Source: Aeromicrobium piscarium (lineage in GTDB: Bacteria > Actinomycetota > Actinomycetes > Propionibacteriales > Nocardioidaceae). Taken from it: a stretch of 64,000 nt of DNA. How positions within the stretch are numbered: the first letter of the stretch is position 1; each line of letters begins with the position of its first letter. Location: positions 1 to 64,000 of the forward strand of contig NZ_VLNT01000015.1 of assembly GCF_007421815.1 (NCBI RefSeq), read 5' to 3'. This document shows positions 4,026 to 38,307 of the stretch, piece by piece. The position numbers and the translations under genes are program-made. Below the pieces are notes generated by a model. The model did no database searches and was not told the origin of the DNA. It worked only from the letters and a program-made list of their open reading frames with translations.

Positions 4026-4079
4026 TAGCGAATCGCTCTCGCATCCATCGGCTTCGCCAACTCTGCACACCTGAAAGGT

Positions 4080-7000
4080 GTGACGGTCTCGATGCGGGTC
4101 ATGTCGGCGGGCAGTGGCTACAAGTACCTGTTGAAGTCGGTCGTTGCCGGTGACGGCGACCGGTCACTCTCGACGCCGCTGACGCGCTACTACGCCGAGG
4201 CGGGCAACCCGCCCGGCTTCTGGATGGGCTCGGGCTTAGCCGCATTCGGTGACGGCCAGCTGACCATAGGAGCGCAGGTGTCCGAATCGCAGCTCCAGCT
4301 GCTGATCGGGATGGGCTGTGATCCGATCACCGGAGATCCGTTGGGGCGGGCGTATCAGCGGTTCGCGTCGGTCGCCGAACGGGTCGAGCGTCGCATCGCG
4401 GACCTCGACCCCGCGCTTAGCGCGGGCGAACGATCCGAGCAGGTCGCTCAGATCGAGACGGAGGAGACCAAACGCGGCACCCGACGAGCCGTAGCGGGCT
4501 TCGACTACACGTTCAGCGTTCCCAAGAGCGTGTCGGTGCTATGGGCTGTTGCCGACGTGGGCACCCAGGCATTGATCGCAGACGCGCATCATTCCGCGAC
4601 TGCTGAGGTGATCGAGTTCTTGGAGCGCGAGGTTGCCACGACCAGGGTCGGTGCCACAGGGCCGGATGGAGCGGTGGCGCATGTTGACGTCGCCGGCGTC
4701 GCGGCCACCGCGTTCGACCACTACGACAGCAGGTCCGCTGACCCTCAACTGCACACGCACGTCGTCATCAGCAACAAAGTGATGACCGTGCAAGACGGGT
4801 GCTGGAGAACGCTGGCTGGTCGTCCGATGCACCAAGCGGTGGTTGCGCTATCCGAGTTGTACAACGCGGTTCTGGCCGATCACCTCACCCGCAACCTCGG
4901 CGTAGCTTGGGAGCAACGCGACCGCGGCCGAGACCGCAACCGAGCCTGGGAAATCGTCGGCGTCAGCGAGGAGCTGGTCGACGAGTTCTCCACTCGTTCG
5001 CGGCATATCGAGGTCGAGAAGGACCGACTCATCGCCGACTACGCGCATCAGCACGGGCGCCAGCCATCGGCGAGAATGGTGCTGAAACTGCGCGCCCAGG
5101 CCACCCTCGCCACCCGCCCAGACAAACAGGTGCGGTCGTTGGCTGACCTCACTGCCGAGTGGCGCCAGCGTGCCACCAGGGTGCTCGGGCAGGACGCCAC
5201 TGGCTGGGCGCGCACCGTCATTACCGGCAATGATCCCGTTGTGGTGTTGCGGACCGATGACGTGCCACTCGACGTGGTCGGCGATGTCGGTCAGGCCGTG
5301 GTCGAGGCTGTAGGGGAGAGGCGCTCGACCTGGCAGCGTTGGAACTTGATGGCCGAAGCGAGCCGTCAGGTCATGGGATGGCGGTTCGCCAGTACAGCCG
5401 ATCGGGAGGCGATCACCGGCATGATCGCCGACGCCGCCGAACAGGCTTCGCTGCGGCTCACCCCTCCCGAACTCGCATCGAGCCCGATCCGATTTCAACG
5501 CGCCGACGGCACGACCAGGTTCCGGCCCCAGCACTCGACCGTATTCTCCGCCGAACACTTGTTGAAGGCCGAGGACCGGCTACTCGACCGTGCCAACAAC
5601 ACCGCTGGTCCAACAGTGGACCTGAAGACGGTGGAACAGTTCAGCTCCCGCCCCGATCGTGAAGGACGAAGGCTCGGGAACGACCAGGCCGCCGCGCTTA
5701 GCGCGATCGCCCTGTCCGGGCGGGCGATCGACGTGCTAGTCGGCCCAGCTGGTGCGGGCAAGACCACCGCCATGTCGGCATTGCGCAGAGCGTGGGAGAA
5801 ACAGCACGGCCCCGGCTCGGTGGTCGGACTGGCGCCCTCTGCGGTCGCCGCCGACGTCCTCGGCGATGAGTTGGGGATCGAGACCGAGAACACTGCCAAA
5901 TGGTGGCAGAGCCACATCATGTATGGCACGACATTTCAGGCCGGGCAACTTGTCATCATCGACGAAGCCAGCCTGGCCGGCACCATGTCCCTCGACCGGA
6001 TCAGCGGCCTGGCAGCCGACGCTGGGGCGAAGGTGTTACTGGTCGGCGACTACGGCCAGCTCCAATCGGTCGATGCGGGTGGGGCGTTCGCGATGCTCGT
6101 CCACGACCGCTCCGACGCCCCCGAGCTGACCGACGTCCACCGTTTCACCCACGGCTGGGAGAAGATCACCTCGCTCCAACTACGTCACGGGCGACCCGAG
6201 GCGATCGACGCCCTCATCAAACGTGGCCGGGTCACCGGCGGCGAGGAAGAGGACATGATCGACGCCGCTTACACCGCCTGGCGGCACGATATCCAGGCTG
6301 GGCGGGCGTCGATCCTCGTCGCCGAAACCCACCAGATCGTGACCGCGCTCAACCAGCGCGCCCGTGTCGATCTGATTCTTGGCGGCACAATTGACCCAGC
6401 CCGAGAACTGGCTCTGCGCGACGGCACCGGAGTGTCCGAGGGCGACACGATCATCACCCGCCACAACGACCGCCGGCTACGCAACCGTCGGACCTGGGTC
6501 CGCAACGGCGACCGCTGGACCGTCACCCGCATTCGCGAAGACGGCTCGATGATGATTCGCCCAGTCGGACGAAGATTTGGCGGCGGAATCGTGCTCCCGG
6601 CGGACTATGTCGCCGAGCACGTCGACCTCGGCTACGCAGTCACCGCCCATCGGGCCCAAGGCATCACCACCGACACCGCCCACACCGTTGTCACGCGCAC
6701 CACGACACGAGAGAACTTCTACGTCGCCATGACCCGGGGTGCCGACCGCAATCACGCCTACGTCGGAGTCGACAGAGAGGATCATGAACACCTCGAACCA
6801 CCCATCGGCGACGGCCCCGAACAGATGGCCCGCGCCGCGCTCTACGGCGTGCTCGACCACATCGGCGCCGAACTATCCGCGCACGAGACCATCACCGCCG
6901 AACACGAACGATGGGGCTCCATCGCCGAACTCGCCGCTGAGTACGAGACCATCGCCCAAGCCGCCCAACACGACCGCTGGGCATCCCTGCTGGCAGAGTC

Positions 7001-7640
7001 CAATCTCACCGACGACCAAGTCGCCGACGTCCTGGCCTCCGACGCCTACGGCGCCCTGTCCGCGGAACTGCGCCGAGCCGAAGCCAACAGCTATCACCTC
7101 GACCGACTGTTCCCGCGTCTCGTTGCTGCTCGCGGCTTCGCTGACGCCGCCGACGTCGCGTCAGTTCTGCACGCCCGCCTCGCCAAAGCCACCGCCCTTC
7201 CAGCAGGCTCTGGCCGCAACCGCAAGACACCGCGTCTCATCGCCGGCCTCATGCCCTATGCGGACGGCCCCATGACCACCGACATGCGCCGAGCTCTCGA
7301 CGAACGCCACGAGCTGATCGAACAACGCGCCGACGCCGTACTCGACGCTGCCTTAGCCGACAAGGAACCCTGGACCACCCGGCTGGGGGAACAGCTCACC
7401 GACAAGAGAGAGGCCAAGCGATGGCGGCGCAACGCCCGCATCATCGCCGCCTATCGCGATCGCTACCAGATCACCACCGCCACGCCCCTCGGCCCCGACC
7501 CAGAAACCACGGCCCAAAAGATCGACCACGCCCGCGCCGAGGCAGCTCTGTGGCGTACGCGAGCGATTGCCACGAGAAAGGGCCCGGATAGCCGTGAACG
7601 GCCTCCGGTGGAACACGATCAGGTTGGACCACGACTGTGA
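4080..7640 (+). CDS. MobF conjugative relaxase-helicase (TrwC/TraA family)
   Basis: 1186 residues. The N-terminal HUH relaxase nicks and covalently holds the transferred strand at oriT, and the C-terminal RecD-like helicase unwinds it. Visible are tandem tyrosines Y37/Y38 (RYYAEAG), the metal triad H214, H225, H227 (spacing as in TrwC), Walker A VGPAGAGKTT near residue 557, Walker B IIDEAS, and the helicase motif TAHRAQGIT near 855. GTG 4080 gives the usual MTVSMRVMSAG start although GAAAGG is very close; ATG 4092 is possible. The gene is intact. No coupling protein, T4SS or integrase is in view, so the element is either mobilisable or extends left. oriT was not located. Confidence 0.95.
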   Translation: MTVSMRVMSAGSGYKYLLKSVVAGDGDRSLSTPLTRYYAEAGNPPGFWMGSGLAAFGDGQLTIGAQVSESQLQLLIGMGCDPITGDPLGRAYQRFASVAERVERRIADLDPALSAGERSEQVAQIETEETKRGTRRAVAGFDYTFSVPKSVSVLWAVADVGTQALIADAHHSATAEVIEFLEREVATTRVGATGPDGAVAHVDVAGVAATAFDHYDSRSADPQLHTHVVISNKVMTVQDGCWRTLAGRPMHQAVVALSELYNAVLADHLTRNLGVAWEQRDRGRDRNRAWEIVGVSEELVDEFSTRSRHIEVEKDRLIADYAHQHGRQPSARMVLKLRAQATLATRPDKQVRSLADLTAEWRQRATRVLGQDATGWARTVITGNDPVVVLRTDDVPLDVVGDVGQAVVEAVGERRSTWQRWNLMAEASRQVMGWRFASTADREAITGMIADAAEQASLRLTPPELASSPIRFQRADGTTRFRPQHSTVFSAEHLLKAEDRLLDRANNTAGPTVDLKTVEQFSSRPDREGRRLGNDQAAALSAIALSGRAIDVLVGPAGAGKTTAMSALRRAWEKQHGPGSVVGLAPSAVAADVLGDELGIETENTAKWWQSHIMYGTTFQAGQLVIIDEASLAGTMSLDRISGLAADAGAKVLLVGDYGQLQSVDAGGAFAMLVHDRSDAPELTDVHRFTHGWEKITSLQLRHGRPEAIDALIKRGRVTGGEEEDMIDAAYTAWRHDIQAGRASILVAETHQIVTALNQRARVDLILGGTIDPARELALRDGTGVSEGDTIITRHNDRRLRNRRTWVRNGDRWTVTRIREDGSMMIRPVGRRFGGGIVLPADYVAEHVDLGYAVTAHRAQGITTDTAHTVVTRTTTRENFYVAMTRGADRNHAYVGVDREDHEHLEPPIGDGPEQMARAALYGVLDHIGAELSAHETITAEHERWGSIAELAAEYETIAQAAQHDRWASLLAESNLTDDQVADVLASDAYGALSAELRRAEANSYHLDRLFPRLVAARGFADAADVASVLHARLAKATALPAGSGRNRKTPRLIAGLMPYADGPMTTDMRRALDERHELIEQRADAVLDAALADKEPWTTRLGEQLTDKREAKRWRRNARIIAAYRDRYQITTATPLGPDPETTAQKIDHARAEAALWRTRAIATRKGPDSRERPPVEHDQVGPRL

Positions 7641-9178: not shown

Positions 9179-10108
9179 TTACTTGGCGTAGGAGTGCAGG
9201 CCGGAGCCGAACAGGTTCACGCCGTAGTAGCTGAACAGGAACGTCACGAAGCCGATCAGGCAGAAGATCGCCGCCCGGCGACCCTTCCAGCCGGCGGTGG
9301 CACGCGCGTGCAGGTAGCCGGCGTAGACGACCCACGTGATGAAGGCCCAGACCTCCTTCGGATCCCAGCCCCAGTACCGGCCCCAGGCGTAGTGCGCCCA
9401 GATGGGCCCGGCGATGAGCGCGCCGAACGTCCACAGCGGGAACGCCATCGCGTTCACCCGGTACGCCAGCTTGTCCATGACCGCGGCCGCGGGGAGCCGG
9501 CGGAGCACCGCTCCGACGTTGCCCTTCGCCTCGGCCCGGGCGCGGATCAGGTACAGCACTGATGCGGCTGCGCCGACCAGGAAGAACGCCCCGGCGAGCA
9601 TGACGGCGCTGACGTGGATCTCGAACCAGTAGGAGTCCAAGGCGGGCACTAGCGGGCCGGCTGGAACATAGGTGGATAGCGACATGCCGAGCATCACCAG
9701 GCCGAAGGCGGCGACGACTCCGCCGGCCCACTGCACCTGGTACTTCCAGACCAATGCCAGATAGGTGAGGAGTGCGACGGCCACGCCGACGAGCCCGAAC
9801 TCGTACATGTTGCCCAAGGGCACCCGTTCGGCGGCCAGGCCCCGGGTAATGACGCTGGCGACCAGGAGCGTCGCGGCGAGGATCGTGAGGGTCACGCCGA
9901 CACGTGAGAATCGTTCTGTGACTGGTGCCTCGTCCTCAACTGGGGGAGCAGGTGGTGTCGGTCCGCTCGTCACGAGCTCTTTTTCATCGCTGACGACCTT
10001 GCGGGCGAATGCCCACTCGGCGACGTGCGCGACGAACGCGAGTGCGAGGACGCAGGTTGCGGCCACCATCGCATAGTTCGAGATCTGTGCGTACTGTTCG
10101 AGCCTCAT
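9179..10108 (-). CDS. ccsB: cytochrome c biogenesis protein CcsB (ResC)
   Basis: 309-residue integral membrane protein with about eight membrane helices. It has the tryptophan-rich heme-binding WWD motif (WGRYWGWDPKEVWAF), which presents heme to apocytochrome c outside the membrane. Together with ResB it forms the system II heme transporter and ligase. Its ATG overlaps the resB stop (ATGA at 10,105-10,108), showing translational coupling. The usual partners ccdA and a ResA-type thioredoxin are absent from this locus. Confidence 0.95.
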   Translation of the reverse strand: MRLEQYAQISNYAMVAATCVLALAFVAHVAEWAFARKVVSDEKELVTSGPTPPAPPVEDEAPVTERFSRVGVTLTILAATLLVASVITRGLAAERVPLGNMYEFGLVGVAVALLTYLALVWKYQVQWAGGVVAAFGLVMLGMSLSTYVPAGPLVPALDSYWFEIHVSAVMLAGAFFLVGAAASVLYLIRARAEAKGNVGAVLRRLPAAAVMDKLAYRVNAMAFPLWTFGALIAGPIWAHYAWGRYWGWDPKEVWAFITWVVYAGYLHARATAGWKGRRAAIFCLIGFVTFLFSYYGVNLFGSGLHSYAK

Positions 10109-11691
10109 GTCTGTGTCTCCTTGAGGTTGTTGGATGTGGGCAAGGCTTGTTGCAGGTCGCGCAGGAACGCATCGAGATCGATCGGAGTCTCGTCACGGGG
10201 CACGCGATCGAGCACGCCGACGTTGACCGAGGTGAGCGTCCTGCCAGCCTCATCGGTACTGGTGGTCGCTGTGATCCAGGTGCGTCGTGGGCGGACCATC
10301 AATGAGGCCATGAGTCCGATCAGTCCGACGCTCACGCCGACGAGGGGCAGCGATTTCGCTGGAACATCGGCGATCTGGAATCGGGCAAACCGCTGCAGAT
10401 CAACGAACTCGATGCTGCCGCCGCCAGGCAGGTCCTGCACCTGGCCGGGGCTCAAGCTGATGTTGAACGGCTCTCCGTCATCGCCGAGCACCTCGGTCAT
10501 CTGCTCTTTCTGAAGTGTGTACACCGACTGCGGGGTGCCATCGTCAAGCCCGAGATCGCCGCTCCACATCCGCAGCCCGACCACCGGATTCACGGCACCG
10601 GGATACACGGTCCTGGTGGGCGCGTCGTCACCAGTCGAAACAGCGGTTGGCATGAAGAATCCCTGGAAGCCCAACTGCTCGGGTGCAGCGTCGGGCACCT
10701 TGACGACGCCTTCGGACAGGTAGGTGCCATCCTGCGGCAAGAAGATCACGGCATCGTCGAACACGACCTCACCGTTGGCGTCGGTGACACGAATAACCGG
10801 GGCATAGCCCTGGCCGATAAGGAAGACATCGCCGCCGTCCAGTGATAACGGGTTGTTGACAACGATCTCGTAGTTCTGTGGCTCGTCGCCGGGCCGCTCC
10901 GTGTAGGTGACGTCGGCCTGGAACAGCCGTGGTGCTCCCATCTGAGGACCACTGGAGTGGAACTCCGCGATCATGCGATCGACGGTCAACCCAAACGGTG
11001 GAAGGTTGTCGGGATCATAGAGTGGGCCAGAGTTGAACTCGTCGTACTGGCTGAGCGTGTTGGAGAAACCATCGCCTTCGGTGACCATGACAGCCCCGCG
11101 GTAACTCCACAACGCACCGATGGCTACGCCGACCAGGACGACCAGGATGCTGCAGTGGAAGACCAAGTTGCCCAGCTCACGCAGGTAGCCCTTCTCGGCT
11201 CGCAGCTCGGTGCCGTTCCCGGTCTGGACGACATCGATGCGTGCGCGTCCGAGCATCTGTCGTCCGGCAGACACGACCTCATCGACCGAGGCCGTGGTCG
11301 TGAAAGAGCCCGATCCGGGCAGACGGGCGAAGTTGCGCGGCGCTCGCGGGGGACGAGCACGTAGGGCTTTGGCGTAGACGCCGATGCGCGGCACGATACA
11401 GCCGACAAGCGAGAGCATGAGCAACAGGTAGATGGCACTGAACCACGGCGAGGAGTACACCGAGAACATGCCGATGGCGTCGAGGACTGGCGCGAGAGTC
11501 GGATGATCTTGAAAGAAAGCCTGGACGGCCCGTGCGTCGACTCCGCGTTGCGGAACCAATGAGCCGGGCACCGCCGCCACGGCGAGCAGAAGCAGCAAGA
11601 ACAACGCCGTGCGCATGGAGGTCAGCTGCCGCCACATCCACCGAACGAACTGCCGCGGTGTCAGCTCCGAGGCCTGCGTCGAGGGATTCAT
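10105..11691 (-). CDS. resB: cytochrome c biogenesis protein ResB
   Basis: 528 residues. Three membrane helices lie near the N-terminus (about 27-50, 80-105, 180-200), then a large extracytoplasmic domain of about 230 residues, then a last helix near 450. This is the standard ResB layout; full length, no frameshift. It is the partner of CcsB in heme delivery and attachment to c-type cytochromes. ATG at 11,691. It sits 191 bases downstream of the DUF5134-like gene on the same strand, so the three may form one transcript. Confidence 0.93.
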   Translation of the reverse strand: MNPSTQASELTPRQFVRWMWRQLTSMRTALFLLLLLAVAAVPGSLVPQRGVDARAVQAFFQDHPTLAPVLDAIGMFSVYSSPWFSAIYLLLMLSLVGCIVPRIGVYAKALRARPPRAPRNFARLPGSGSFTTTASVDEVVSAGRQMLGRARIDVVQTGNGTELRAEKGYLRELGNLVFHCSILVVLVGVAIGALWSYRGAVMVTEGDGFSNTLSQYDEFNSGPLYDPDNLPPFGLTVDRMIAEFHSSGPQMGAPRLFQADVTYTERPGDEPQNYEIVVNNPLSLDGGDVFLIGQGYAPVIRVTDANGEVVFDDAVIFLPQDGTYLSEGVVKVPDAAPEQLGFQGFFMPTAVSTGDDAPTRTVYPGAVNPVVGLRMWSGDLGLDDGTPQSVYTLQKEQMTEVLGDDGEPFNISLSPGQVQDLPGGGSIEFVDLQRFARFQIADVPAKSLPLVGVSVGLIGLMASLMVRPRRTWITATTSTDEAGRTLTSVNVGVLDRVPRDETPIDLDAFLRDLQQALPTSNNLKETQT

Positions 11692-11882
11692 GGCGAGTCT
11701 TTCGATCGAGATATGCCGTGGTGACCACGTGCGGCCGGCCGGTGCGTGGTGAGGGGATAGTTCCGGTGTGGCATGGGAGCTCCGTAGTGGTTGAAGAAAG
11801 GTAGAGGGGAACCTGCGGTCCGTGACTCAACAGTGAGTCGTCGGGGAACCCGAGGATCGCCTGCCAAGTACCGGCCCCAGCC

Positions 11883-12476
11883 TCACATCGCGAGTAACAT
11901 CGCGATCATGCCGCCGGCCATGATTGCGTGACACAGCGAATGCAGCCGATGCCCGCGGGCCACCAGCGTCCGGTAGAGCCACCAAAGTGCTCCCGCCGCG
12001 CACAATGCGACGACCACCCCGTTCATGGCATCGACCCATGCGGTCGCCGCGGTCTGAAGAGTGTCATGGTCCTGACCGCCTGCCATGTTTGAGGAGTGTT
12101 CCCCGGTGCCGTTAGTCATCAGTAGCGGCATCGCCGCGAGCATCCAGATCATCGCGATGTTGAGGACGACGTGCCCGGCGGTATCAATCCAGCTGGTCGT
12201 TACGCGAGAGTCGAGAAAAGCCCACACCAGGGCGAAAGCGAAGACCATGAATACGAGGATCTGTAGCCAGCTACCGGCGCTTGGGATGGTCGACCAGATC
12301 ATCAGAACCATCGCCACACTCATCACCGCGTGGTTGATGTCCACTAGTTCTTCACTCGTGCGAGTGTTCCCGGCTGCAGCGGTCTGCCTCCGAATGGCGA
12401 CATAGTTGCCTACGCACACTGATGCGGTGAAAAGGAACGCGACGGTCAAGATGATGTTCCACGGCGGGGAGAGCAT
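11883..12476 (-). CDS. DUF5134-like integral membrane protein
   Basis: 197 residues, six predicted membrane helices, short loops, and conserved-looking His residues in or near helices (DINHAVMSVAMVLMIW, AGHVVLNIAMIWM, LHSLCHAIMAGGM). A Met/His-rich pattern and a His/Asn/Asp loop (GTGEHSSNMAGGQDHD) suggest metal or heme contact. The family occurs in actinobacterial copper and respiratory gene clusters; its function is not established to my knowledge. ATG 12,476 sits just inside a dyad shared with the divergent ctaD promoter region. Confidence 0.7.
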   Translation of the reverse strand: MLSPPWNIILTVAFLFTASVCVGNYVAIRRQTAAAGNTRTSEELVDINHAVMSVAMVLMIWSTIPSAGSWLQILVFMVFAFALVWAFLDSRVTTSWIDTAGHVVLNIAMIWMLAAMPLLMTNGTGEHSSNMAGGQDHDTLQTAATAWVDAMNGVVVALCAAGALWWLYRTLVARGHRLHSLCHAIMAGGMIAMLLAM

Positions 12477-12485
12477 CCGCTCATG

Positions 12486-12508
12486 TTACTCTACGGATTG
12501 TAGAATAA
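12486..12508. promoter_or_regulatory. dyad operator between DUF5134-like gene and ctaD
   Basis: TTACTCTAC (12,486-12,494) and GTAGAATAA (12,500-12,508) form 9-bp arms with one mismatch around GGATT. The CTAC...GTAG core resembles dyads used by BlaI/CopY/MecI-type repressors. It lies 10 bases before the DUF5134-like start and 88 bases before ctaD, so one repressor could control both directions. No BlaI/CopY-type gene is in the window. Confidence 0.5.
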
Positions 12509-12595
12509 GATCGTCTGGGCAGGGCACCGATCGTCGCCTTTTGATCTGGCTGCGGTGTTGCTTCATGTCAGTAGGTTCCACGAAGGAGAGGGCTG

Positions 12596-14362
12596 ATGGC
12601 CACCACAGCGGCGTTCGAGGAGGCTAAGCAGTCCGAGCTCCCGGCGTCGGTGCGGCGTGAGCGCAACATGGGTCAGAAGGTCGTGACGCTTCTGACGACG
12701 ACCGATCACAAGTTGATCGGCAAGATGTATCTCGCGACGACGTTCGTCTTTTTCATCATCGGCGGCGTGATGGCGTTGATCATGCGCGCCGAGCTTGCCC
12801 GCCCGGGTACCCAGGTGGTCGGCGACGAGACGTTCAACCAGCTGTTCACGATGCACGGCACCGTGATGCTGTTGATGTTCGCGACGCCGCTGTTCTTCGG
12901 TTTCGCGAACCTGGTGGTGCCGATCATGATCGGCGCGCCGGACGTCGCCTTCCCGCGGTTGAACATGTTCAGTTTCTGGATGTTCCTGTTCGGCAGCCTG
13001 ATCGCGTTGTCCGGGTTCATCGTGCCCGGTGGCGCCGCGAGCTTCGGCTGGTTCGCCTATATGCCGTTGAGCGATTCGATCAACTCTCCGGGCATGGGCG
13101 GCGACCTGTGGGTGATGGGCCTGTATATGTCGGGTCTGGGCACGATCCTCGGTGGCGTCAACTTCATCACCACCATCTTCACGATGCGGGCACCGGGCAT
13201 GACTATGTTCCGGATGCCGATCATGGTGTGGAACACCCTGGTCACCAGCCTGCTGGTGATCATCGTCTTCCCCGTGCTGGGGGCGGCCCTGTTGGCGATT
13301 GCCGCGGATCGCATGCTCGGTGCGCATGTTTTCGATGCCGCGACGGGTGGACCGATTCTGTACCAGCATCTGTTCTGGTTCTTCGGCCATCCCGAGGTGT
13401 ACATCATCGCGCTGCCGTTCTTCGGCATCATCACCGAGGTGCTGTCGGTGTTCAGCCGCAAGCCGGTGTTCGGTTACGTCGGCCTGGTGTTCGCCACGTT
13501 GGCGATCGCGGCGCTGTCGGTGGCGGTCTGGGCGCACCACATGTTCGTCACCGGCGCGGTCAACTTGACTTTCTTCTCGTTCATGACCTTGTTGATCGGT
13601 GTTCCGACAGGTGTGAAGTTCTTCAACTGGATCGGCACGATGTGGGGCGGTTCCATCTCCCTGCACACGCCGATGATGTTCGCCCTGGGCTTCCTGACGA
13701 CCTTCTTGTTCGGCGGCCTGACCGGCATCGTGCTGGCGTCTCCGCCCCTGGATTTCCAGCTGTCAGATAGCTATTTCGTGGTGGCGCACTTCCATTATGT
13801 GGTGTTCGGCACCGTGGTGTTCGCGATGTTCGCCGGTTACTACTACTGGTGGCCGAAGATCACCGGCAAGATGCTCGACGAGAAGCTGGGCAAGATCCAC
13901 TTCTGGCTGCTGTTCATCGGTTTCCATCTAACGTTCCTGGTGCAGCACTGGCTCGGTGCCGCCGGTATGCCGCGTCGTTACGCCGATTATGGACCGAATG
14001 ACGGTTTCACCACGCTCAACGGAATCTCCACGATCGGGGCGTTTCTGTTGGGGGCGTCGATGATCCCGTTCATGTACAACGTGTGGAAGTCCCGTAAGGC
14101 GCCGATGGTCGGCCTCGATGATCCGTGGGGTTGGGGTCGCACGCTGGAGTGGGCGACGTCCTCCCCGCCGCCGCGGCACAACTTCGTCCGGCTGCCGCGG
14201 ATCCGTTCCGAGAGCCCGGCCTTCGACCTGCATCACCCAGAGGTGGCGTCGGTGGAGCTGCTGGACAACCCCGGAGAACAGGAAGGAGTCGCCGATGCTC
14301 CCGACGTGGATAGACGTGAGGAGGCATTGGGTGACGCGCACGGTGAAAGACCTGATGAGTAG
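12596..14362 (+). CDS. ctaD: aa3-type cytochrome c oxidase subunit I
   Basis: 588 residues, twelve membrane helices. All cofactor ligands are present: H87 (TMHGT) and H400 for heme a, H398 for heme a3 (HFHYV), H265 with Y269 (HPEVY), and H314/H315 for CuB. The gene therefore looks functional. The start has GAAGGAG upstream. The C-terminal 50 residues are hydrophilic and acidic. Subunits II, III and IV and bc1 genes are not adjacent, so this is probably a second, mobile copy that joins the host's other subunits. Neighbouring ccsB-resB supports a role in building or rescuing the respiratory chain under metal stress. Confidence 0.93.
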
Positions 14363-14494
14363 CCAAGGAGAAGGGAATCTCGAAGATCCTGTCTGATCGA
14401 CCTTGAACGGCCCGGTGCGACGTGAGATCGCATCTGTGGTGCAGGTTCGATTGTGTTCCGCTTGCCGGAATCTTCCCCAGATCGAGGTAACCAG

Positions 14495-15796
14495 ATGATG
14501 CATGCAACCGTTCGTAAGACAATGTTCGCGGCAGTATTGACAGTCGGCTTGATGGCCGGGCTCGCTGCACCGCCCGCAATAGCTGACTCTAAGGACGACA
14601 TCCGGCGTCAGCAGGGCGAGAACGAGCAGCGCCGGTCACGGGCGCAACAGGACCTCCAGCACTCCACCGCACGGTTTCAGGAAGCGTCCTCCGCTCTGAG
14701 TGCGGCGACTAGTCAGCTAGAAAAAGCTCAAGATGTTCTTGGACAGACTCGCGGCGAACTCGCCGTGGCGCAGTCCCGTGATGCTGAGTTGCGTGAGGAG
14801 CTGACTCGTGCCGAGGCCGATCTAAAGTCCGCTGAAAAACGGGTCGATCTCGCTGCGAGAGAGCTCGACGACTCCGAGTCCGTCGTCGAGCAGTTCGCGG
14901 TCGATAGCGTGATGGAGGGCGATCGGGGCCTGCGAGCTTTCAGCGGATTGCTTCAAGGTGAGGCTCCGACGACGTTCTCTGAACGGGTCCAGATGAACGA
15001 ATCCATTGGCGATGCGCAGATCGCGACCATGCAGGAACTCGATGCGGCTCGGGTGATGGTTGAACTGGAACGTCAACGAGTCGAGGAACTGCGTGATCAG
15101 GTCGCGTCACAGAAGCGCGAGGCCGAAGCGAACGTGGTGCGAATGCAAGAACTTACGACCCAGGCTGAAACCCAAGCCGCAGAGGTCAGCCAGTTGGTAG
15201 AGACGCGGGAGGTCGCACAGACGGAGGCGAATGCCGCCAAAGCACAGGACGAACAGGCGTTGGCCGAACTCGATGCGGAGCGAGCCGCCTTGGAGCAGCG
15301 GATGCGGGCCATAGTTGATGAGGAGTTGCGCAAGGAGCGTGAGCGGCGGGCTCGTGAGGGCGGCGGTGGTGGCCCCGCCCCCGGCGGCGGGGGAGGTGGT
15401 GGCAGCGTGCTGGGTTACCCGGTCAACGGTCCGATCACCTCGCCGTACGGAATGCGCCGGCATCCCGTCACTGGCGTGTACAAGCTCCACGACGGCACTG
15501 ACTTTGGCGCTGGCTGCGGCGTTCCGGTCCGTGCCTCCGCTTCGGGCACCATCGTCGAGCAGTATTACAACTCTGCCTACGGCAACAGAGTCATCATCAA
15601 CCACGGCGTCATCGGTGGTTCCAACCTCATGACCACTTACAACCACATGTCCGGCTTCGCCGCCAGCCCGGGTCAATACGTCAACCGTGGTGACGTGATC
15701 GGCTACGTCGGCACTACGGGGCTCTCCACCGGCTGCCATATGCACTTGATGGTTCTACAGAACGGTGCGACAACGAACCCGATGTCCTGGCTCTGA
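14495..15796 (+). CDS. secreted M23 peptidase with N-terminal coiled coil (EnvC/NlpD-like)
   Basis: 433 residues: signal peptide (about 1-30, ending PPAIA-DS), a long coiled coil (about 33-290, repeated Gln/Glu/Ala/Arg heptads), a glycine-rich linker (about 300-318), and a C-terminal M23 domain with HDGTD and HMHLMV Zn ligands and a disulfide-like GCGVP / TGCHM cysteine pair. ATG 14,495 has GAGGT seven bases upstream; the frame is open from 14,453. A wall hydrolase or hydrolase activator acting outside the membrane. It is the second M23 gene bracketing the cytochrome genes. Confidence 0.88.
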   Translation: MMHATVRKTMFAAVLTVGLMAGLAAPPAIADSKDDIRRQQGENEQRRSRAQQDLQHSTARFQEASSALSAATSQLEKAQDVLGQTRGELAVAQSRDAELREELTRAEADLKSAEKRVDLAARELDDSESVVEQFAVDSVMEGDRGLRAFSGLLQGEAPTTFSERVQMNESIGDAQIATMQELDAARVMVELERQRVEELRDQVASQKREAEANVVRMQELTTQAETQAAEVSQLVETREVAQTEANAAKAQDEQALAELDAERAALEQRMRAIVDEELRKERERRAREGGGGGPAPGGGGGGGSVLGYPVNGPITSPYGMRRHPVTGVYKLHDGTDFGAGCGVPVRASASGTIVEQYYNSAYGNRVIINHGVIGGSNLMTTYNHMSGFAASPGQYVNRGDVIGYVGTTGLSTGCHMHLMVLQNGATTNPMSWL

Positions 15797-15877
15797 GAAA
15801 CGCTGTCTGCTGGCGCGTGCGCTTGACGCAAGTCGCGCAAGTTCCTAGCTGCTGGGTTTGCTTAGTGTGACCTATGA

Positions 15878-15909
15878 GCGCTATCATCGTAAAATAGCGA
15901 TGATAGCGC
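15878..15909. promoter_or_regulatory. 12-bp perfect inverted repeat before the CDF exporter
   Basis: GCGCTATCATCG (15,878-15,889) and CGATGATAGCGC (15,898-15,909) are separated by TAAAATAG, 61 bases before the exporter start. The arrangement is typical of ArsR/SmtB operators, and the arm shares CGATGATA with the arsR promoter dyad. No T-run follows, so a terminator is less likely. Confidence 0.65.
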
Positions 15910-15969
15910 CAGTAGTTCGCTCTTGGAGCTGGCTAGTGAAGAATGTTCGGAGAGAACGGAGCTCCCCTG

Positions 15970-16914
15970 ATGGGTGCAGGACACGACCACGGCCCGGCGG
16001 TTGATGATACCGCCGGGGTTCCCGGTGACTATCGCAAAAAGCTGTGGATCGCCTTTGGCATCACGGCCACGATCGTTGTCGCCCAAGCTGTCGGCTCGGT
16101 GATCACGGGAAGCCTCGCGCTGCTGACCGACACCGCGCACGCGATCACCGACGCTTCAGGGCTGCTCGTGGCCCTGATCGCCGCGACTCTGATGCTGAAG
16201 CCAACTAGTTCCAGGCGTACCTGGGGCTTCCGGCGTATCGAAGTCATCGCTGCCCTCGGCCAGGCGACCCTGCTGCTCGTCGTCGGGTTCTACACTGCGA
16301 TCGAAGGCATCCGGCGGCTGTTCGAACCACCGGACGTTCCCTCCACCGAGTTGCTCATTTTCGGGATCGTCGGTCTCACCGCCAATGTCATTGCGATCGC
16401 CATCCTGTCCTCCAGCAGGGGCGCGAACTTCAATATGCGTGCCGCATTCCTGGAGGTTCTCAACGACGCACTAGGTTCCCTCGGCGTCATCGTCGCCGCG
16501 ATCATGATCGCCACAACTGGGTTCCAGCGAGCAGACGCCATCGCCGGCCTGTTCATCGCCGCGCTCATCGTGCCGCGTGCGTTCAAGCTGATGCGGGAGA
16601 CCACCAGCGTGCTGATGGAGTTCACACCCAAGGGTCTCGATCTGGACGAGGTTCGTGCTCACATCCTGGAGCTCGATCACGTCAAGGACGTCCACGACCT
16701 GCACGCCTCCACTGTGGCGACCGGCCTGCCCACCATCACTGCTCACGTGGTCGTCGAGGACGAGTGCTTCACCGACGGACACGCCGCCGAGGTTCTCCAT
16801 GCCGTGAAGCAGTGCGTCGCCGAGCACTTCGAAGTGTCCGTAAGCCACTCGACCTTCCAGGTCGAGACCGAGCACATCAGCGACGACGAACCCGACTCCG
16901 TCAAGCATCCCTGA
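15970..16914 (+). CDS. cation diffusion facilitator (CzcD-like metal exporter)
   Basis: 314 residues, six membrane helices plus a cytoplasmic C-terminal domain. Helix II carries the HAITD (HxxxD) half of the transport site. Helix V reads EVLND where Zn/Cd CzcD/ZitB proteins have HxxxD, so one His ligand is replaced by Glu. An N-terminal HDHG motif may bind metal. ATG 15,970 has CGGAG eight bases upstream; ATG 15,943 is less well placed. Probably proton-coupled efflux of Zn(II) or another divalent ion. Regulation by the ArsR-type protein is inferred from the shared operator motif. Confidence 0.9.
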   Translation: MGAGHDHGPAVDDTAGVPGDYRKKLWIAFGITATIVVAQAVGSVITGSLALLTDTAHAITDASGLLVALIAATLMLKPTSSRRTWGFRRIEVIAALGQATLLLVVGFYTAIEGIRRLFEPPDVPSTELLIFGIVGLTANVIAIAILSSSRGANFNMRAAFLEVLNDALGSLGVIVAAIMIATTGFQRADAIAGLFIAALIVPRAFKLMRETTSVLMEFTPKGLDLDEVRAHILELDHVKDVHDLHASTVATGLPTITAHVVVEDECFTDGHAAEVLHAVKQCVAEHFEVSVSHSTFQVETEHISDDEPDSVKHP

Positions 16915-17092: not shown

Positions 17093-18091
17093 TCATAGGT
17101 CGCGGTGTTCGATTGGACGATGGGCTTTGAGAGTGCGGCGCTCGGGGGTGCCATATCCGCAGGGACGTGGTGGTTGTCGGTTGGCTGTTGGGGTCGCGCC
17201 TAGTTCGGTGATGTCGTTCGCGTTGGTCACCGCCCTTGCTGTTCCGTCGCATAGCAGTGCGTTGGTGCCGCTGCTCATGATCCCGAGCACGGAGCCTGGC
17301 ACGGCGCCGACGCCTCGCCCTAGCTCGTGGGCTCTGGCGGCAACGGCCAGTGCGCTTGAACGTGGTCCTGATTCCACGACCGTCGTCGCCGCCGACAGCG
17401 CGGCCTCGATCCGAGCACGAGCGAGGACTCGTGTCCTGGTGGGTGGCGAACCGGGTGGCGTCTCGCTGACCACTAGCCCTACATCGGCGATGCGCTCCAG
17501 CAAACCGGCGTGCGGTCGATCGCCGGTTGAGGCTATCACCGCGATTGTGTGTCCCGCCTCCATCAGTGCCGCACGATGTGCCGCGGCATCGATGCCGAAC
17601 CCTCCTCCGGACACAACGATTTTCTCATCACGTGCCAGATCTGCTGCGATACCGCCCGCCACTTCTACCCCGTAAGCGGTCCCATCGCGGGAGCCGGTGA
17701 TGGTGAACCGGTTGTCTAACGAACCTGACAGTAGTGATGCGTGGCCTTTGACCCACAGCAAGTACGGTCTCTCGACACCGAGGTCGTCTAACGAGGTCGG
17801 AAAGTCGCGATCGCCGGGAATCAGCGTGCCGAATCCTTCTCGCTCGGCGCGTGCCGTCGTCTCCGCGACCTGTTGAGTGTCGACCTGTCGTGGTAGGTGC
17901 GATCGCCAGAGTCGCGCCTCGACCTCGCCCATCCCTGGGACCGTGCCTTCTTCGGTTAGCGCACGGACCGTCTCCACCGCGCCGGCATGCGCGAGCACGC
18001 GACCCGTCAAGATGTCACCCGGTTCGACGATGTTCGCCAGGACCATGCGTGCGGACCGTTCATCTGTCGCCAGCGCGCTCAACTCGTTCAT
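17093..18091 (-). CDS. DprA/Smf-like DNA-processing protein
   Basis: 332 residues. A Rossmann-like DprA domain is visible: ITGSRDGTAYG and VVSGGGFGIDAAAHRAAL match the GSR and SGxAxGID.AH motifs, ending with PGSVLGIMSSGTNALLCDGTA. DprA loads RecA on incoming single-stranded DNA. Chromosomal dprA normally follows comM/yifB; this copy stands alone at the island edge, which suits a role in handling transferred or phage DNA. ATG 18,091 has AAGGGGG upstream, and that ribosome site overlaps a perfect 20-bp palindrome. No C-terminal winged helix is obvious. Confidence 0.88.
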   Translation of the reverse strand: MNELSALATDERSARMVLANIVEPGDILTGRVLAHAGAVETVRALTEEGTVPGMGEVEARLWRSHLPRQVDTQQVAETTARAEREGFGTLIPGDRDFPTSLDDLGVERPYLLWVKGHASLLSGSLDNRFTITGSRDGTAYGVEVAGGIAADLARDEKIVVSGGGFGIDAAAHRAALMEAGHTIAVIASTGDRPHAGLLERIADVGLVVSETPPGSPPTRTRVLARARIEAALSAATTVVESGPRSSALAVAARAHELGRGVGAVPGSVLGIMSSGTNALLCDGTARAVTNANDITELGATPTANRQPPRPCGYGTPERRTLKAHRPIEHRDL

Positions 18092-18100
18092 CACGGACCC

Positions 18101-18120
18101 CCTTGTCGGTACCGACAAGG
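18101..18120. promoter_or_regulatory. perfect 20-bp palindrome upstream of dprA-like gene
   Basis: CCTTGTCGGTACCGACAAGG is fully self-complementary. It lies ten bases from the start codon, and its last bases form part of the AAGGGGG ribosome site. It is either a dimeric repressor operator or a hairpin hiding the ribosome site. Confidence 0.65.
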
Positions 18121-18343
18121 TGAACGAGGCGGTCCTCTGTTAGCGGGGGTGGTGCCGAAGCCGTACCGCCCGCATGCGTTTGCCGGCTGCTCGGCGGTCC
18201 CTTTTTCGGTCCCGTTTTGCGGGGAGAGTCCCGAGAATAACCACGTAGCTACACGTAGCTGTTGTATAGTAGTCGTGTCTCAAATTCCCGCAATGACGCA
18301 GGATTTTAGACCTCAGCACGGGGTAAACCGTGAACTCGAAGCC
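18121..18343. other. AT-richer gap between dprA-like gene and att scar
   Basis: No gene seen. It contains a tandem direct repeat of CACGTAGCT (18,242-18,250 and 18,252-18,260) followed by TGTATAGTAG, a -10-like sequence at 18,265-18,270. Tandem repeats near an attachment site can be arm-type recombinase sites. Otherwise nothing recognised. Confidence 0.35.
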
Positions 18344-18382
18344 ATTCAGTTGTTCTAGGTTCGAGTCCTAGTACCCCAGCCA
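18344..18382 (+). other. tRNA-Gln 3' fragment, probable attR scar
   Basis: The sequence reads as the 3' end of an actinobacterial tRNA-Gln: variable region, T-arm stem CTAGG / CCTAG around TTCGAGT (18,355-18,371), acceptor 3' strand TACCCCA, discriminator G and encoded CCA (18,380-18,382). The preceding bases cannot fold into the D-arm and anticodon arm of the same tRNA, so the gene is not complete here. Such 3' fragments mark the far end of elements that integrate into tRNA genes and leave the intact tRNA at the other end, here presumably left of the window. Confidence 0.72.
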
Positions 18383-18490
18383 CAAGCCTTGGTATTGCGT
18401 GGTTGGTCACCGACTTCTGTTCGAAGCATGCATCCTGCCCGACGCCGCGGCGATATCTGGGTGCCCGTGCAGCAGGGTTAGTGTGAACGC

Positions 18491-18841
18491 ATGACCGTGC
18501 GGCGCATCGTTCCTGATATCGAGAGCGCCGATGTGCCGGCGTCCGTCGAGTTCTACTCCGGCCTGCTGGGTATGGAGCCCGTCATGGACCATGGCTGGAT
18601 CGTGACCTTGGCCGATCCTGCCGATCCGGCTCGGCAGCTGAGCGTCGCATCGCACGATGCCTCCGCTCCGGTCGTGCCCGATGTGTCGATCGAGGTCGAC
18701 GATGTCGACGACGCCTATGCCACGGCCCGGCGACTGGGAGCCGAGATCGTGCATCCGCTCACCGAGGAGCCGTGGGGAGTGCGCCGGTTCTTCGTGCGCG
18801 ATCCCGATGGGTACGTGGTGAACGTCCTCGGTCACGGCTAG
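18491..18841 (+). CDS. VOC-superfamily protein (glyoxalase/bleomycin-resistance fold)
   Basis: 116 residues, a single VOC module pair with the typical opening VRRIVPDIESADVPASVEFY and closing RRFFVRDPDGYVVNVLGH (FxDPxGy motif). Substrate unknown; VOC proteins include lyases, dioxygenases and drug-binding proteins. It is the first gene right of the tRNA-Gln scar, ends directly at the convergent molybdenum hydroxylase gene, and is transcribed alone. Confidence 0.85.
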   Translation: MTVRRIVPDIESADVPASVEFYSGLLGMEPVMDHGWIVTLADPADPARQLSVASHDASAPVVPDVSIEVDDVDDAYATARRLGAEIVHPLTEEPWGVRRFFVRDPDGYVVNVLGHG

Positions 18842-37940: not shown

Positions 37941-38016
37941 GGCCCCGTTGTGTAGCGGCCTAGCACGCCGCCCTCTCAAGGCGGTAGCGCGGGTTCGAAT
38001 CCCGTCGGGGCTACCA
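37941..38016 (+). tRNA. tRNA-Glu (CTC), first copy
   Basis: 76 bases with encoded CCA. Acceptor GGCCCCG / CGGGGCT, anticodon loop CTCTCAA (anticodon CTC) in a CCGCC/GGCGG stem, T-loop GTTCGAATC. In many actinobacteria a tRNA-Gln gene lies next to tRNA-Glu near leuCD. Confidence 0.96.
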
Positions 38017-38231: not shown

Positions 38232-38307
38232 GGCCCCGTTGTGTAGCGGCCTAGCACGCCGCCCTCTCAAGGCGGTAGCGCGGGTTCGAATCCCGTCGGG
38301 GCTACCA
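38232..38307 (+). tRNA. tRNA-Glu (CTC), second identical copy
   Basis: Same 76 bases as the first copy, 291 bases downstream, with the preceding leader (CTGGTAGAGTCTTC) also repeated. A recent local duplication. Confidence 0.96.

Follow-up and report, generated by a model that had tools for sequence, protein, structure and literature searches.

A dprA gene at the edge of a MobF-type integrative conjugative element probably carries an RNA hairpin that hides its ribosome-binding site

The dprA gene at the edge of an integrated element probably carries, as read from its sequence and from those of its relatives, an RNA hairpin that hides the ribosome-binding site. The gene itself is best read as encoding an accessory DprA, one carried by a family of integrative conjugative elements of the MobF type in Actinomycetota. 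Special control of dprA production, which the original prediction had cast as a tight switch, is supported by the comparison of leaders and would most likely be exerted at translation through the RNA hairpin; the putative link of this control to DNA entry is plausible. The explanation that we favour, with somewhat more confidence than doubt, is that an accessory DprA of MobF elements stands under a translational latch, formed by a leader hairpin between a CACCT block and the Shine-Dalgarno sequence (SD), and would act on the ssDNA of transfer.

The window, which is the whole stretch of DNA analysed, comprises the first 64 kb of contig C7 (71.7 kb) in a genome of 3.76 Mb and 46 contigs (Table 1). 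Contig C7 carries a MobF relaxase gene, respiratory and metal cargo, dprA and then a 42-bp scar (18345-18386), whose match to the 3' portion of an intact tRNA-Gln(CTG) on contig C46 (C46:144418-144459) is 98%. Past this intact tRNA, contig C46 encodes a tyrosine integrase (PF00589), a T4SS coupling protein (PF12696, PF02534) and a primase-polymerase, together with a weak ParB_N match under its cut-off. The two contigs between them supply the MobF relaxase, coupling protein, integrase and tRNA scar expected of a MobF-type integrative conjugative element and probably belong to one element, although we infer the join. The expectation of a stand-alone DprA beside an att scar was borne out, with dprA (17093-18091) being the last gene ahead of the tRNA-Gln scar. 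The same placement was seen in Aeromicrobium sp. PE09-221 (locus L007), where the scar is present, the flanking gene is similar, the dprA is 81% identical to that of the window and the adjoining efflux protein is 97% identical. It is not general, and in genome G039 dprA lies directly against MobF.

Table 1. Features of the window that bear on the dprA gene and its leader
Feature	Position	Strand	Basis or remark
MobF relaxase gene, convergent with dprA, same element	4080..7640	+	Profile matches
Hairpin CACACCT-GAA-AGGTGTG; contains GTG, the probable start codon of mobF	4066..4082	+	Fold; also compatible with the shared CACCT block
Cation diffusion facilitator gene (cargo), its 3' end facing that of dprA	15943..16914	+	Profile matches
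dprA-family gene, 332 codons and stop, ATG start	17093..18091	-	PF02481; starts of relatives
Shine-Dalgarno AAGGGGG, part within the 3' arm	18098..18104	-	Read from sequence; fold
Perfect 20-bp palindrome CCTTGTCGGTACCGACAAGG	18101..18120	both	Overlaps the dprA Shine-Dalgarno
Conserved leader block, here GTTCACCT, opening of the 5' arm	18118..18125	-	Leader comparison
att scar, 3' part of tRNA-Gln	18345..18386	+	Sequence match
First gene past the scar, glyoxalase-like by eye	18491..18841	+	Eye only

Several further observations were made on this setting. The cargo at 9179-16914 includes cytochrome assembly proteins, a ResB-like protein, a peptidase and a cation efflux protein, and two neighbouring tRNA-Glu(CTC) genes of equal score lie at 37941-38016 and 38232-38307. 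Rfam at the gathering score returned only two tRNAs in the window and, in six loci, a single match at chance level (E 0.97). A plasmid nucleotide search with the dprA region gave no match, and no relatives were confirmed among the viral contigs searched. A small membrane-type protein lies near the integrase or dprA in several elements (L046 6004-6471, L048 18727-19116, L120, L121, L123 and L124) and has no Pfam match.

The window protein matched Pfam PF02481 with an E value of 2.8e-43 and 148 bits against a cut-off of 29.6, placing it in the DprA superfamily, and also matched the solved DprA 3maj (E 3e-23). Its score with the NCBIfam TIGR00732 dprA equivalog model was 140.4 bits, under the cut-off of 191.15, and it was therefore not filed as that equivalog; a second dprA in the same genome (C12:67500-68144) had a higher DprA score. 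The program-listed open reading frame starts at TTG 18118, inside the palindrome, and the start that agrees with the relatives is ATG 18091, with AAGGGGG (18104-18098) ahead of it. Comparison with the 81% identical PE09-221 relative gave a dN/dS of 0.19. In a midpoint-rooted tree of 66 proteins, the window DprA fell in a clade of 36 mobile entries (support 100/99), separate from 24 chromosomal entries and three plasmid entries (two Arthrobacter, one Nocardioides). Another plasmid copy, the fourth (Microbacterium), fell inside the clade, and L087-L089, which had initially been labelled mobile, were placed outside it. Like the chromosomal DprA/Smf of transformation (PF02481), the mobile proteins belong to the same fold family and keep the GSR and RNR arginines: among 33 clade entries, R135 (GSR) is kept in all 33, R225 in 31 and R227 in 32. 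Unlike the chromosomal proteins, the window DprA lies under the equivalog cut-off and in a separate clade, in which the N of RNR is changed to Ala in 21/33 and the D of GID to Glu in 24/33.

DprA-like proteins on mobile DNA also include the ShosA/PsyrA antitoxins, and the window protein could be an antitoxin of this type, or half of a DprA-phosphoribosyltransferase (PRTase) defence pair, instead of a transfer protein. It matched ShosA (E 3.1e-33, 113 bits) and PsyrA (1.2e-17) in PADLOC as well as the solved ShosA 9vzo (7e-14), and DprA with PRTase is described as an anti-phage pair (PMC9122126). However, unlike ShosA/PsyrA, it has no toxin partner among the proteins scanned, nor was a PRTase found (PADLOC on nine neighbouring or element proteins, Pfam on ten window proteins), so that the adjacent partner of a ShosTA/PsyrTA or DprA-PRTase system was not seen in this set. 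Moreover, the conserved neighbour is MobF. We give this alternative very little credence.

A survey of dprA next to MobF, proposed with the original prediction, gave a positive result. Copies of dprA at E <=1e-52 were found in 35/391 genomes of the order and 10/394 of the class, two sets that overlap. A convergent MobF lay within 12 kb on the same contig for 41/53 copies, with gaps of 140 to 11,435 bp (median 1948); among the remaining copies, one has a MobF 15 kb off in another orientation and 11 have no MobF within 20 kb. This count covers 53 of the 56 copies at E <=1e-52, leaving out G279, G502 and G514, which lie outside the clade (L087-L089) and whose genomes have no MobF match at 1e-40. 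The short MobF pieces beside L018 (G104) and L100 (G605) are not among the 41.

Other features accompany these MobF genes. Upstream of 30/48 MobF starts there is a divergent C5-cytosine methyltransferase gene, usually about 300 bp off and in some cases as an incomplete copy; the loci with this arrangement include L048, L120, L123 and L124, and no such gene was found in the genome of the window at E 1e-40. The block CTYTKGCASRKCGAGG, a candidate oriT or regulator site, occurs in 16/40 MobF upstream stretches (L125-L164) and is absent from the window, L046 and L047. On the Nocardioides plasmid pCHL (L081 18378-21008), ssb, DUF4192 and dprA stand in a row near ParB, DUF932 and MobF genes, an arrangement that resembles a leading region.

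The overlap of a perfect 20-bp palindrome (18101-18120) with the ribosome site was confirmed, part of the SD AAGGGGG lying inside the palindrome. On the minus strand the palindrome reads as a CCTTGTCG-GTAC-CGACAAGG hairpin whose 3' arm runs into the SD, and the ATG follows 6 nt past the SD. The predicted RNA fold of the window leader contains this SD hairpin. A sigma-70 scan of 17900-18450 gave no promoter, and two terminator-like sites lie on the + strand at 18180-18199. Although the palindrome is the longest perfect one in the window, its size alone says little because dinucleotide shuffles of the window gave a mean of 0.217 palindromes with arms >=10 per 64 kb. Its position over the SD, by contrast, and the presence of hairpins in relatives mark it as more than chance. 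The original prediction had proposed looking for further copies in the element and had staked its case on conservation of the palindrome among homologous elements. No other match with up to three mismatches was found in the window, and the whole genome held one exact site and one with three mismatches. As to conservation, the letters are not conserved, whereas the hairpin structure is. The palindrome is best read as the form that the hairpin arms take in this element, with its exact letters local.

Leaders of 33 related mobile dprA genes were compared. This set excludes L098 and L111, whose leaders are the same as those of other entries, L048 and L052-L055, which are larger stretches of included copies, and L044, a plasmid copy closely resembling L090. 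Also excluded were L115-L117, which do not reach the start, and L084-L089, which are either basal in the clade or outside it. A GCGCACCT-type (CACCT-type) block was present 28-42 nt ahead of the start in 33/33 leaders, the outer one being taken where a leader has several ACCT, and [CTA]ACCT occurred at 24-44 nt in 4/53 control genes from four stretches taken as outside elements, to one of which L049 lies close. By eye, the basal clade member L084 has the block, and L085 and L086 are without it, which counts against the hairpin. The ACCT arm is base-paired to a run of purines in 30/33 predicted folds; this run is the SD itself in 28 of them and lies upstream of the likely SD in L082 and L096, and three leaders show no pairing. 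Mean SD pairing was 0.74 in the 33 leaders versus 0.54 in 39 control genes taken from the window and nine large loci, element genes included (p 1e-5, a value that, like the other p values for dprA leaders, is optimistic because the leaders are related by descent). Pairing exceeded 0.6 in 27/33 leaders versus 15/39 control genes. In addition, mean pairing fell to 0.56 when the upstream part was shuffled, and 16/33 single leaders reached a fraction <=0.1 in this test.

The arms of the hairpin were further found to change together. When arms were swapped between leaders, cognate arms bound better (p 0.0003, 0.0007 and 0.0001 with 14, 19 and 26 representatives, respectively), although an earlier swap with 10 representatives reached only p 0.03. 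In the window subclade of five (window, L007, L094, L100 and L102, in this order), stem pair 5 is GC, CG, CG, TA and TA, and stem pair 6 is TA, GC, CG, CG and CG. These stems have flaws: L100 and L102 are mismatched at pair 4, L094 forms neither pair 7 nor pair 8, and the L007 stem needs one bulged base. Furthermore, the mRNA strand was more stable than its complement in 25/33 leaders (p 0.0014, in a comparison without control genes), with 23 G-U pairs. A double-stranded operator would not account for this asymmetry, which bears directly on the proposal that the palindrome binds a dimeric repressor covering the ribosome site. The perfect 20-bp dyad at the gene start favours such a repressor, but the arms and their spacing differ among the relatives. 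An operator specific to this element was considered and was not our first choice because neither the window nor the genome contains another good copy of the palindrome and because the arms change together in relatives; we regard it as improbable.

With the SD paired in predicted folds and the arms changing together, the leaders behave as expected of an SD-sequestering hairpin, but three results are contrary. RNAalifold on a plain alignment of the 33 leaders predicted zero pairs. The seven closest leaders had 92% of cells paired, yet they showed no two-sided change and shuffles did equally well. The stability of the 79-nt window leader did not exceed that of its shuffled versions (z -0.10). Together with the palindrome frequency expected from shuffling, the window stability and the missing consensus fold would suit a chance palindrome, with SD pairing as a by-product of base composition. 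That explanation appears very unlikely in view of the block in every leader against few controls, the arm swap and the SD pairing above that of control genes.

The same kind of block was found ahead of MobF genes. In a set of 40 MobF starts from relatives and that of the window, a CACCT block lay <=48 nt from the start in 38/41 leaders, a range for which there is no matched control. The block pairs with the SD in one large group (CTCACCT ... AGGTGAG), and in the window mobF it pairs with AGGTGTG, which contains the start codon; in other leaders (e.g., L130, L139, L149 and L152) it sits about 6 nt ahead of the start and has little or no SD to pair with. Complementarity between the block and the 3' region exceeded that of shuffled 3' regions (Fisher p 2.6e-5 to 8.3e-5), and the MobF arm swap was not significant (p 0.15-0.20). 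By eye, similar hairpins or blocks were also noted ahead of two further genes, that for the small membrane protein in L124 and one of the transfer region in L046 and L119.

This sharing with MobF is the best argument for another explanation, in which the block is a DNA site, either part of a promoter or a regulator site, common to dprA, mobF and other backbone genes, and the hairpin is secondary. The MobF leaders without an SD to pair, the MobF arm swap and the blocks ahead of other element genes all agree with a DNA site. However, the dprA arms coevolve and favour the mRNA strand, and the distance from block to start varies over the range given above in dprA and is far shorter in some MobF leaders. 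We consider a DNA site rather unlikely. The shared block is also the root of a broader and tentative possibility, namely that in this actinobacterial MobF family dprA, mobF, the small membrane protein gene and the transfer-region gene might all stand under one CACCT anti-Shine-Dalgarno latch, released by one common signal as transfer begins, with the result that a conjugation-dedicated DprA would appear only while ssDNA is handled.

In the favoured explanation, a translational latch on an accessory DprA, the dprA mRNA leader is predicted in silico to fold such that the conserved CACCT block pairs with the SD. In the resident element, the hairpin would keep dprA translation low, and DprA would be made once something tied to transfer opened or bypassed it. 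DprA may then bind the transfer ssDNA and, judging from the DprAs that have been studied, could protect it, load RecA or lower the restriction barrier of the recipient. In E. coli, B. subtilis DprA is reported to increase recombination following Hfr conjugation (PMC12386762), and H. pylori DprA is described as inhibiting a restriction enzyme and stimulating a methyltransferase (Dwivedi 2013, as cited in PMC4489622).

Leader hairpins that sequester the SD are known, for example in the fold-back inhibition of insertion elements. As there, a mobile-element gene has its ribosome site paired with a 5' arm; the present hairpin differs in that it lies on the dprA of MobF elements and is predicted from sequence alone. 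In the open-licence literature, no paper was found on SD hairpins of the fold-back inhibition type in insertion elements. A search of the same literature gave nothing joining dprA with the leading region of conjugative plasmids or DprA with MobF, which is weak as an absence, and the main text of a leading-region survey (PMC11541004) does not contain the words dprA, Smf or DUF4192.

For the conjugative plasmids of the pAO1 group in Arthrobacter and Paenarthrobacter, PMC10494377, citing Mihasan and Brandsch (2016), describes a shared T4SS and DNA repeats 5' of DUF4192, DprA and ParB. Therefore, DprA next to conjugation genes is not new. Like those plasmids, the present elements have a mobile DprA by transfer genes with its own special upstream DNA, the plasmid DprA being also beside partition genes. 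Unlike the pAO1-group protein, the window DprA belongs to another lineage, has short SD hairpins and is convergent with MobF; the upstream repeats of the pAO1 group are far longer. On Arthrobacter pChr15 and pAO1 (L045 7731-13137; L080 19618-29290), intergenic repeats of about 75 to 300 nt lie upstream of dprA, DUF4192 and ParB. Their ends match, which might allow long-range pairing, and they might serve as single-strand promoters. An Frpo-type single-strand promoter, as known from leading-region genes, was considered for the window dprA too, where an oriT was not located. Fold z scores of upstream DNA on the coding strand were mixed (window -2.1, L007 0.25, G039 -2.8, pAO1 dprA -3.5 and pChr15 dprA 0.12).

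With the proposed leader hairpin, the control of MobF elements would gain a translational layer. Moreover, a DprA clade that travels with MobF and has its own control element offers a direct setting in which a role of DprA outside natural transformation could be tested for conjugation, where RecA loading, protection of the entering strand and anti-restriction are the roles that can be addressed.
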